Part shown: piece by piece, positions 20,833 through 23,301 of the stretch
Layout: the number at the start of each line of letters is the position of its first letter
Numbering within the stretch: position 1 is the first letter of the stretch
Source of the DNA: Cloacibacterium caeni
GTDB taxonomy: Bacteria > Bacteroidota > Bacteroidia > Flavobacteriales > Weeksellaceae
Reading direction: 5' to 3'
DNA length: 64,000 bases
NCBI RefSeq assembly: GCF_907163125.1
Contig: NZ_OU015319.1
Coordinates: 2,418,001-2,482,000 of the forward strand
Translations under genes and position numbers: made by a program
Notes under the pieces: generated by a model
What the model saw: only the letters and a program-made list of their open reading frames with translations
Databases searched by the model: none
What the model was told of the DNA's origin: nothing

Positions 20833-22698
20833 TTATCTTCCTAAATAAATAAGCAATACATTAATATCTGCTGGAGAAACTCCAGAAATCCTTCCGGCTT
20901 GCGCAATGGTTTTAGGTTGAATTTTATTGAGCTTTTGTTTTGCTTCAGCGGAAAGAGATGAAATTTTAGAATAATCAAAATCTTCTGGAATTCTAATGGT
21001 TTCTAATCTTTGTAATTTGGCTACATTATCTCTTTCTTTTTCTATATATCCTTTATACTTGATGTTGATTTCTGCCTGTTCTTTTTGTTCTTCATTATAC
21101 TGTTCTACTTTTTCTTTGATGAAATCAATTGCAGTTAATTTTTCTAAAGATAGGTTAGGTCTTGTAAGGATTTGAGCTGCTCTGTACGCTTGGTCTACAG
21201 GTGAACTTTCATTAGCTTCTAGGATAGGATTGATAATACCAGGCTTTAAAGAAGTTTCTCTCAGAAATTCTTCTAATTCCGAAGATTTAGCCACTTTTTC
21301 TTCCATATTTTTGAGTCTTTCTTCTTTAGCTAGACCAATATTGAAAGCTTTTTCTGTAAGTCTAATATCAGCATTATCTTGTCTTAAAAGCAGTCTGTAT
21401 TCTGCTCTAGAAGTAAACATTCTGTATGGTTCTTCGGTTCCTTTGGTAATTAAATCATCTATTAAAACTCCGATATATGCCTCGTCTCTGCTAAGTATGA
21501 ATTCATCTTTTTCGTGAACTTTATTATGAGCATTAATTCCTGCCATTAAACCTTGTCCTGCAGCTTCTTCGTAACCAGTAGTTCCATTAATTTGACCAGC
21601 AAAATAAAGATTTTCTATCAATTTAGTTTCCAAAGTATGCTTTAATTGAGTAGGAGGGAAGTAATCATATTCTATAGCATAACCAGGTCTGAAAATTTTA
21701 GCTTTTTCAAAGCCAGGAACATGGTGTAAAGCTTTTAATTGCACATCTTCTGGCAGCGAAGAACTGAAACCATTTACATAAACTTCTACGGTATTCCAAC
21801 CTTCAGGTTCTGCAAATAATTGATGACGATTTCTTTCTGCAAAACGATTGATTTTATCTTCAATACTTGGGCAATATCTTGGTCCAATACTTTGGATAGT
21901 ACCATTAAACATTGGAGATTTATCAAATCCAGTTCTTAGAATTTCGTGAACGGTATCATTGGTATAAGTAATGTAGCAACTGCGCTGTTTCGTTAATTTA
22001 GGAGTGTCTAAATAACTGAATTTTTGAGGATTTTTGTCTCCAGCTTGTTCTTCCATTTTAGAATAATCAAGGCTTCTTCCGTCTACACGAACTGGTGTTC
22101 CTGTCTTCATTCTACCAGCTTCAAAGCCTAAATCTACCAATTGTTCGGTAATTCCATAAGCTTTTGGTTCTCCCATTCTTCCTCCTCCTAACTGTTTATC
22201 ACCAACGTGAATGAGTCCATTTAGGAAAGTTCCATTGGTTAAAACCACAGATTTTCCTTTGATTTCTATACCTAAAGAAGTAATTACGCCTTCTACTTTG
22301 CCATTATTGATAATTAAAGATTTCACCATATCCTGAAAAAAGTCAAGATTTGGGGTATTTTCTAGAACATATCTCCATTCTTCTGCGAATTTCATTCTAT
22401 CATTTTGTGTTCTTGGAGACCACATTGCTGGACCTTTTGAAAGGTTGAGCATTTTGAATTGAATAGCAGATTTATCTGCTACTATTCCGCTAAAACCACC
22501 CATTGCATCTATTTCTCTTACAATTTGTCCTTTTGCAATACCACCCATTGCTGGATTACAAGACATTTGTCCGATGGTTTGCATATTCATGGTAATAAGC
22601 ATGGTTTTAGAACCAAGATTAGCAGCAGCAGCAGCAGCTTCGCAACCAGCGTGACCAGCTCCCACTACGATTACATCATATGTTTCGTTAAATAACAT
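20833..22698 (-). CDS. mnmG: tRNA uridine-5-carboxymethylaminomethyl(34) synthesis enzyme MnmG
   Basis: 621-residue FAD enzyme that, with MnmE, modifies U34 of certain tRNAs. VVGAGHAGCEAAAAAANLG is the N-terminal FAD loop; GGGRMGEPKAYGIT and the NGTTGYEEAAGQGLMAG block are GidA signatures; the C-terminal helical MnmE-binding domain ends in ISGVSPADINVLLIYL. The gene is bracketed by two perfect parS palindromes. mnmG (gidA) is near the replication origin in many bacteria, so this may be an origin-proximal region (inference). Confidence 0.97.
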   Translation of the reverse strand: MLFNETYDVIVVGAGHAGCEAAAAAANLGSKTMLITMNMQTIGQMSCNPAMGGIAKGQIVREIDAMGGFSGIVADKSAIQFKMLNLSKGPAMWSPRTQNDRMKFAEEWRYVLENTPNLDFFQDMVKSLIINNGKVEGVITSLGIEIKGKSVVLTNGTFLNGLIHVGDKQLGGGRMGEPKAYGITEQLVDLGFEAGRMKTGTPVRVDGRSLDYSKMEEQAGDKNPQKFSYLDTPKLTKQRSCYITYTNDTVHEILRTGFDKSPMFNGTIQSIGPRYCPSIEDKINRFAERNRHQLFAEPEGWNTVEVYVNGFSSSLPEDVQLKALHHVPGFEKAKIFRPGYAIEYDYFPPTQLKHTLETKLIENLYFAGQINGTTGYEEAAGQGLMAGINAHNKVHEKDEFILSRDEAYIGVLIDDLITKGTEEPYRMFTSRAEYRLLLRQDNADIRLTEKAFNIGLAKEERLKNMEEKVAKSSELEEFLRETSLKPGIINPILEANESSPVDQAYRAAQILTRPNLSLEKLTAIDFIKEKVEQYNEEQKEQAEINIKYKGYIEKERDNVAKLQRLETIRIPEDFDYSKISSLSAEAKQKLNKIQPKTIAQAGRISGVSPADINVLLIYLGR

Positions 22699-22722
22699 TT
22701 ATATCTATTTATAAATTTTCTA

Positions 22723-22741
22723 TTTTTTTTTTTTTTTTTTT
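22723..22741 (+). repeat. 19-base T homopolymer upstream of mnmG
   Basis: Nineteen consecutive T residues between the mnmG start codon and the upstream parS site. Tract length is prone to slippage and to sequencing error. Confidence 0.85.
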
Positions 22742-22745
22742 CAAA

Positions 22746-22761
22746 TGTTTCACGTGAAACA
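22746..22761. promoter_or_regulatory. parS site (ParB binding), upstream of mnmG
   Basis: Second perfect TGTTTCACGTGAAACA, 47 bp upstream of the mnmG start; palindrome extends to 20 bp (22744-22763). Distance between the two sites is 1.94 kb. Confidence 0.92.
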
Positions 22762-22789
22762 TTGTATAAATTTTCTACCAATTACGGAG

Positions 22790-22885
22790 TGTAACTAGCC
22801 CCGATTGCAACGGTTACCCCGCAACAAGCATTTGATTTAGCTTAGGAGTGAGGAGTAAAAGTGGAAAGCGGGAATAGCTTCTAAA
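22790..22885 (+). ncRNA. Flavo-1-like structured element (candidate)
   Basis: A GC-rich block in AT-rich surroundings. CTAGCCCCG near 22795 can pair with CGGGAATAG near 22869, and CCCCGC near 22817 with GCGGG nearby. The interior carries heptad words GGAGTGA and GGAGTAA. This layout recalls the Flavo-1 RNA motif of Flavobacteria, but I identify it from memory of such elements, not from a covariance search. Strand is uncertain. Confidence 0.4.
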
Positions 22886-22890
22886 AATCT

Positions 22891-23301
22891 TTATTCTGTT
22901 TTTAATGACAAATAAAAATCTTCTTTTGCTCGCATTGTTTTTTGTTCTTCTTCGGTTTTATCTTTATAACCACAAAGGTGAAGAATACCGTGTGCAATTA
23001 CTCTTTTCTTTTCTTCTTCGTAATTTTTTGAAATAAGACTAGCATTGTCCTTAATTCGCTGCAAAGATACAAAAATCTCTCCTGAAATGGTTTTTCCACG
23101 AACTTGGTCGAAAGTAATGATGTCTGTATAATAATCATGGTCTAGAAAATCTTGATTGATTTTGAGCAAATATTCATCATCACAGAAAATATAATTGATT
23201 TCTCCGAGTTTTTTTCCTTCGGAAACAATGATATTTTCGATCCAATTTTTAAGATTTTCGTCTATATTTTCGTCTATATTTTCGTAAAAAAAGTGTATCA
23301 T
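22891..23301 (-). CDS. ybeY: rRNA maturation RNase YbeY
   Basis: 136-residue metal-dependent endoribonuclease used in 16S rRNA 3'-end maturation and ribosome quality control. The family motif appears as AHGILHLCGYKDKTEEE: the first two His ligands are present, but the third metal-binding His of the usual HGxLHLxGYDH is replaced here (KD), which is also the form I recall from other Bacteroidetes. A YYTDIITFD segment matches the family. Start is 11 nt after the patatin gene's end region on the same strand. Confidence 0.93.
   Translation of the reverse strand: MIHFFYENIDENIDENLKNWIENIIVSEGKKLGEINYIFCDDEYLLKINQDFLDHDYYTDIITFDQVRGKTISGEIFVSLQRIKDNASLISKNYEEEKKRVIAHGILHLCGYKDKTEEEQKTMRAKEDFYLSLKTE

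Follow-up and report, generated by a model that had tools for sequence, protein, structure and literature searches.

Flavo-1 (RF01705) was catalogued in 2010 with a published range of Bacteroidetes, and is classed there as an RNA ('y') and not as cis-regulatory ('n') (Weinberg 2010, PMC2864571). The same article considers single-stranded DNA for another motif, STAXI, and leans against it (PMC2864571). A 2021 transcript map of F. psychrophilum, in its sections that deal with the motif, finds Flavo-1 hits sense or antisense indistinctly, many of them outside transcribed regions, while several 5' transcribed regions overlap such hits (PMC9723704). Literature searches on MITE, REP and structured DNA at the level of article listings, supplements excluded, found no link between Flavo-1 and transposable elements, and searches by sequence pieces returned only subjects that were unrelated as judged by title.

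Compared with REP/REPIN sequences and their RAYT genes, Flavo-1 elements are likewise short intergenic hairpins present in many copies without a gene, but they are longer, branched, do not adjoin PF01797 genes and carry target duplications (TSDs) in one lineage. The core-bearing elements of two Bacteroidota genomes (G064 and G068) resemble MITEs in their size (160-212 bp), inverted repeats (TIRs) and 8-bp TSD. Flavo-1 elements differ from MITEs in their conserved, covarying three-way junction and in tips and inner modules that vary between orthologous copies, and for the subtype described below (type-i) neither TIR nor TSD was found. TIRs together with TSDs of fixed length are the mark of a DDE-kind transposase acting in trans.

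The window copy and its match to Flavo-1

The window, which is the whole 64,000-nt stretch of Cloacibacterium caeni DNA that was analysed, contains a block at 22790-22885 that the initial annotation had described by its two end sequences and had identified as probable Flavo-1. The block was present as described, with CTAGCCCCG at 22795-22803 and CGGGAATAG at 22869-22877, and the covariance-model search that had been proposed for it (cmscan of 301 bases with the Rfam model at permissive settings) gave a match at 22793-22879 on the plus strand (genome 2440793-2440879) that covered the full model (1-76) with 40.9 bits, E 1.2e-7 and GC 0.47. The identification held as to likeness and length and fell short as to score, which lay 1.1 bits under the Rfam gathering cut-off of 42. 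The window copy is a Flavo-1-like copy without formal Rfam membership, probably because its inner module is a variant, and no Rfam family exceeded its own cut-off within the whole 64,000-nt window.

The copy is 87 nt long and lies between two ORFs on the minus strand, one of 621 aa (20833-22698) and one of 136 aa (22891-23301), which are candidates for the mnmG and ybeY of the initial annotation. Just upstream of the element, at 22746-22761, TGTTTCACGTGAAACA is kept in 7 of 7 genus genomes and, being parS-like, presumably corresponds to the ParB parS consensus.

On the plus strand, CTAGC (22795..22799) is the predicted 5' side of a closing helix, P1, through CTA/TAG pairs; by analogy with type-i copies the same bases may instead pair as AGC/GCT. 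The 5' conserved arm (22800..22811) is composed of the outer stem CCCG, an A.G mismatch, TT, the 3x3 loop GCA and AC, and the 3' conserved arm (22861..22872) of GT, the loop GGA, AA, G and CGGG, both in a P2 register that was placed by hand. Between them the inner module 'type B' and its tip (22812..22860), delimited by predicted fold and by comparison with orthologues, would contain a GG/AA 2x2 loop, a TTAC/GTAA helix, further short helices and an AAGC hairpin, so that the loops as placed by hand read GCA/GGA (first) and GG/AA (second). The cmscan alignment and the P2 register agree that the Flavo-1 arms GATTG.A..CGG and ..GGAAAGCGGGA and their pairing are found in this copy. The 3' side of P1 and the tail TAGCTTCTAAAAAT (22875..22888) have counterparts in many type-i copies of G014 and G037, where GCTCCT leads in most cases into runs of A, plain or G-rich, and the tail of the window copy itself occurs in all 7 orthologues when small variants are allowed.

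Taken alone, the window copy folded no better than its dinucleotide shuffles, either as RNA (z -1.2; 27 of 200 shuffles as good) or as DNA (z -0.25; 76 of 200), and for this reason its structure is argued from comparison and not from energy.

The initial annotation had also proposed that the variable centres consist of heptad words and that this connects the RNA family to word-repeat elements. Lag-7 self-identity in the window copy was 0.36 (z 2.3), the top value among the ten lags compared. When 30 copies from the genome were combined, lag 7 gave a z of 0.8 for whole elements and -0.8 for the variable tips (28 long enough), whereas lag 6 in the same copies gave 3.9 and 4.4. The centres are non-periodic at 7 bp, an outcome that the annotation had itself named as contrary to its proposal, and by reading, it is words in the arms (GATTGNA and GCGGAAA), and not the variable centre, that give the heptad look. 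Some adjoining spacers of relatives do hold genuine 7-bp arrays, one of which has a lag-7 identity of 0.82 (z 9.4); since a real array scores this highly while the combined lag-7 signal of the copies is absent, the connection between Flavo-1 and word repeats is unsupported. Such arrays are sequences separate from the Flavo-1 copies. Those in the left flank of site 29 (L093 and L112), one of which has the z of 9.4, are built of the words GATGTTA, GATGTTG and GATGATG beside a Flavo-1 copy, and their copy number is unequal between sister species.

Family architecture and taxonomic distribution

A scan of genome contigs for the 5'-arm pattern yielded at least 120 stretches, and 179 loci, genomic and viral, were taken on among the matches listed. 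Both arms were recognised by pattern in 55 of these 179 listed loci (57 elements), none of them viral; the 59 viral-contig loci, through which phage carriage was considered, matched the 5'-arm pattern and in no case had a 3' arm by pattern. Comparison of the rows suggests that Rfam Flavo-1 is one hairpin (P2) of a larger three-way junction that is closed by P1 and that includes a variable second hairpin, P3, which was noticed by reading. Many printed rows share the layout GCGyr-AGG-GATT...AAAG-CCC-G-[hairpin]-yrCGC-CCAAA. The Rfam entry has the full-length model, the arms and the strand in common with the window copy, but its model spans P2 alone and missed 5 of 18 loci offered, and the family reaches beyond the published 'Bacteroidetes'.

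P1 was scored where the 5-mer before the 5' arm was matched, downstream of the 3' arm, by an exact reverse complement, in those 49 of the 57 elements that had enough flank, all from other taxa and among the matches listed. It was found in 45 of 49, in comparison to a control of 21.0 (sd 3.1, maximum 30 of 1000) in which downstream parts were exchanged between loci. A wider set gave 55 of 64 against a control of 23.7 (maximum 35), and the test gave a weaker result in the genus of the window (19 of 29; control 12.0, sd 2.3, maximum 19).

Covariation within P2 was assessed in 93 distinct elements, of which 29 rows came from the genus and included orthologous copies, and the shuffles ignored relatedness. 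The two outermost pairs (u9-d0 and u8-d1), which the selection patterns left free, covary, being standard in 91 and 93 of 93 elements (shuffle means 42.0 and 56.5; maxima 56 and 66). The two pairs between the loops, restricted by the patterns to transitions, were standard in 93 and 91 of 93 (shuffle means 85.8 and 75.0; maxima 89 and 81). The loops are mostly GNA/GNA with G.A pairs, an invariance that is partly imposed because the selection patterns fix most G.A positions; among copies picked by the covariance model, of which 87 of 90 could be placed, GNA/GNA occurred in 60 of 87 for loop 1 and 49 of 87 for loop 2 under a crude placement. By reading, at least four different outer shells enclose this P2 core, namely CTAGCC..GCTCCTAAA, GTGAAAA..GCTCCTAAA, GCGTG..CACGCCCAAA and the GGCTAAACTAAA TIR.

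Copies are many per genome. The 2.98-Mb genome of the window contained 35 Flavo-1 matches at E <= 10, of which 31, the window copy included, had E <= 1.3e-4 and 23 exceeded the cut-off, and as in MITEs these copies are interspersed, numerous and without coding capacity. Matches at E <= 0.001 were present in 33 of 59 genomes, the genome of the window included. Among 14 control genomes, 10 had matches at E <= 10, none over cut-off, and none of the 14 had a match at E <= 0.01 or at E <= 0.001.

Ten further genomes were reached through the loci and were counted with the Rfam model on at most 150 scored candidates per genome. At E <= 0.01 these held 142 matches in G059 (a Spirochaetia record), 11 in G060 (Spirochaetaceae), 140 in G061 (Spirochaetales), 87 in G062 (Leptospirales), 1 in G063 (Thermodesulfovibrionia), and 139 and 148 in the Bacteroidota genomes G064 and G068, with 6, 34 and 19 in the remaining three. 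Outside Bacteroidetes, Flavo-1 exceeded its cut-off in Spirochaetota, Leptospirales and one Thermodesulfovibrionia record, all of them metagenome bins; most of the ten genomes are such bins and single matches may therefore be binning errors. The spirochaetal bins G059 and G061 (loci L145, L134 and L148), with about 140 matches each, lie far beyond the published range.

Orthologous sites within the genus

The locus of the window copy is occupied in 7 of 7 genus genomes, so that no empty site was available there, and the modules at this one site differ between species. The flank, TGTTTCACGTGAAACA included, and the outer stem persist, the stem apart from small losses in G004 and a single change in G005. 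The inner module is of type B (..GGTTACCCCGCAAC..GGAGTAAAAGTGG..) in G000, G006, G001 and G004 and of type C (..TTTGAGCTCTTTTT..AAAAAGCGAGTGCGG..) in G005, G002 and G003, and an extra segment of the 5' strand is found in G001, G003 and G004. Reading by eye also identified core swaps at sites 14, 15 and 30 and tip swaps at sites 8, 17 and 19. Sites 14 and 30 separate G000, G003 and G005 from G006 and G002, while the window site separates G000 and G006 from G002, G003 and G005; a single tree with one change per site therefore does not account for both splits unless recombination or recurrence is allowed. The swaps may have arisen through recombination between copies or through incoming alleles.

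Presence and absence were compared from a base of 30 copies with the window site kept apart; five copies without a match among the matches listed, one with only a weak match, one ambiguous copy and two with multi-copy flanks were left out, which left 20 sites to be followed in G002, G003, G005 and G006, in 73 site-by-genome comparisons that were all read by eye. The element was present in 55 comparisons, a remnant in 1, absent in 14 and unresolved in 3, and absences were concentrated in G002 (10 of 17) in comparison to G003 (3 of 19), G005 (1 of 18) and G006 (0 of 19). Other copies of the genome thus show presence and absence at orthologous sites, as gain or loss without polarity. Most empty sites were replacements of the whole spacer, without a clean insertion or duplication, the cleanest being site 12 in G002.

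Divergence between orthologues was 2.7-3.0% in arms and tips and 4.8-5.7% in flanks (42 pairs with arms at least 80% alike), a difference that is inflated because the pairs had been chosen for similar arms. The lower divergence could reflect a function in place. In orthologues of sites 10, 15 and 26 (for example L099, L063 and L071), the loops of perfect GC palindromes occurred in either direction between species (CAGCTTTGCTG/CAGCAAAGCTG), which might result from strand switching at cruciforms.

Elements with inverted repeats and the alternative readings

In G064 and G068 the Flavo-1 core lies inside complete elements of 160-212 bp with TIRs and an 8-bp TSD; the copies in G068 are alike and extend past P1 into the inverted repeats GGCTAAACTAAAAATGTAATGA...TCATTANAATTTTAGTATAGCC. 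Among 63 elements located in stretches of the two genomes, 33 had both ends recognised, and their 8-bp flanks were identical at 0.53 in comparison to 0.345 when shuffled (z 6.3). Of 343 frames differing in length and offset, this one scored highest, and its position coincides exactly with the ends of the TIRs. When 8 repeated sites were taken out, the remaining 25 copies had 0.55 against 0.355 (z 5.4; the overlapping 9- and 10-bp frames gave z 5.5), and the excess in these 25 copies, maximised over frames, was 0.21 in comparison to at most 0.143 in 60 shuffled sets. The exact TIR pattern occurred at 40 places in the two genomes together and a reversed control pattern at 3. The 15 elements bounded on both sides, with L470 and L477 kept separate although perhaps orthologous, had a mean of 5.87 matches of 8 (control 3.39, sd 0.38, maximum 4.93 of 2000), and perfect duplications were found at L470, L490 and L540, all with the core. 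A second, reversed copy in G064 that is missing from G068 had a 7/8 duplication. Such features are characteristic of non-autonomous transposons that duplicate 8 bp of their target.

The core was present in 10 of the 15 bounded elements, and 4 of the 5 without it had another hairpin. These sister elements (L472, L485, L487 and L539) share the TIRs and carry a hairpin such as GTAGGAGTTTGTTGCTCCCTTCTCCTAC in place of Flavo-1. Other palindromic sequences were observed in the same genomes: a roughly 50-nt module between ATAG and CGTG that contains two palindromic parts (L397, L399 and L406 of G064; missing in the G068 partners), and a further palindrome family, TACTGTAGCATTAATTTTTTTTCAAAAAATACGCTACAGTAT and its variants, which stands singly or as short arrays next to elements of G064 and G068 (L390, L399 and L410).

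For the subtype of the window copy, no TSD stood out from shuffles in 28 of 40 copies from G037, G014 and G012 with both anchors present (maximum z 3.74; maxima of eight null sets 2.1-4.0), and no TIRs were recognised by reading around copies of this type. It follows that this subtype moves otherwise, that its copies are old, or that its outer ends lie elsewhere.

No parent transposase sharing the TIRs of the elements was found among the IS1595-family and ISL3 candidates. IS1595-family genes were limited to one intact and one broken gene in G064, with none in G068; the intact gene has other candidate inverted ends (TTGTGGCA...GACAGAATCA), and 0 of 3 IS1595 loci matched the element TIR better than shuffles. 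At L493 (approximately 1054-2056, G064) an IS1595-family gene has at its sides a 24-nt inverted repeat unlike the TIR of the elements. ISL3 gave a single match below cut-off, and no gene-bearing candidate for an autonomous copy stood out when the 40 exact-TIR places were inspected for a right-hand TIR and for either the core or the sister hairpin.

We consider it probable that the window copy is one copy of an interspersed, non-coding, MITE-like family of mobile DNA, in which Flavo-1 would be the best conserved part, the P2 of a three-way junction with P1, a variable P3 and a variable P2 tip, where P2 appears to be built of short covarying helices separated by G.A-rich internal loops. A DDE-kind transposase acting in trans would move the elements, and the subtype of the window would have arrived likewise by transposition. 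The hairpin may be read, or merely tolerated, as single-stranded DNA and not as an RNA product. The core could on the other hand be a passenger that was captured by MITEs in one lineage, and such capture is also assumed if Flavo-1 acts as a structured non-coding RNA that is expressed, or as an RNA element in cis, which we consider unlikely. Strong covariation, RNA-like internal loops rich in G.A, arms that diverge less than their flanks in the pre-selected pairs, the 2010 classification and the 5' transcribed regions of F. psychrophilum that overlap hits are consistent with an RNA, but the hits of the same species lie in sense and antisense alike and often outside transcribed regions. Elements of G000 do lean antisense to tandem genes (14 vs 4, or 17 vs 4 with looser rules), a bias that is not general as the count across taxa is 10 vs 8 without preference. 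The latter count, together with a window copy on the plus strand and flanking ORFs on the minus strand, also led us to discard a cis-regulatory leader of the flanking genes. At the window copy no sigma-70-type promoter was found beyond shuffle level, in a scan that does not represent Bacteroidota promoters, and no terminator-like site was present, with 0 intrinsic terminators (GC stem then T run) in 22650-22950. Presence is unequal between species at many sites, the window copy folds like its shuffles, and of the two strands the named one gives the better fold in 25 of 30 copies under DNA parameters, as against 19 of 30 under RNA parameters.

Movement of a REP/BIME-like hairpin by a Y1 transposase (RAYT/IS200-type) appears very improbable, although the distributions at first agree: in raw counts uncorrected for genome size and kinship, 27 of 59 genomes, that of the window included, had both Flavo-1 and PF01797, 22 had neither, 6 had Flavo-1 only and 4 PF01797 only, and PF01797 matches were found in 9 of the 10 further Flavo-1 genomes. 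Adjacency failed, as a pattern search placed an element within 1.5 kb of 2 of 36 PF01797 loci, the two being one gene in two related genomes, and the G059 genome with its 142 Flavo-1 matches had no PF01797 match. Y1 enzymes are not known to make 8-bp duplications or TIRs, both of which are found in one lineage. At L035 (1360-1962) lies an ORF of 200 aa that weakly matches Y1 transposases (23.7 bits) and is flanked on both sides by repeat arrays that appear as repetitive ORFs (KENFGKENF...). A stronger though still doubtful candidate is that the three-way junction is a payload, carried in different lineages by MITE shells that are unrelated to one another, and that it has a putative function of its own, for instance in promoting spread as a folded ssDNA or RNA, or in acting as a host-factor sink. 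The occurrence of the P2 core in at least four shells by reading, and of the TIR shell also without the core, would fit this, but the mobility of the first three shells in their own right is putative. It is possible, and we suggest it tentatively, that Flavo-1 is a mobile three-way junction, built of modules that are arranged concentrically and can be exchanged, which spread across phyla in different transposon shells, its covariation reflecting selection on folded ssDNA or correction of quasi-palindromes during replication and not an RNA gene.

In summary, there is nothing unusual about the window block as a copy of a known motif, and the motif is less ordinary than its label. On the best reading, Flavo-1 may be a structured core within mobile DNA that exchanges modules, and its fold may act as DNA or as RNA or be carried along. 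The mobile reading predicts 8-bp duplications and a trans-acting transposase. If it is true, an RNA catalogued in 2010, and still without an assigned function in the later paper, would be explained in at least one lineage as a transposable DNA's structured core, and covariation with intergenic position can flag mobile DNA hairpins as RNAs. The one site with different modules in sister species would then provide a natural series on how structured repeats exchange parts.
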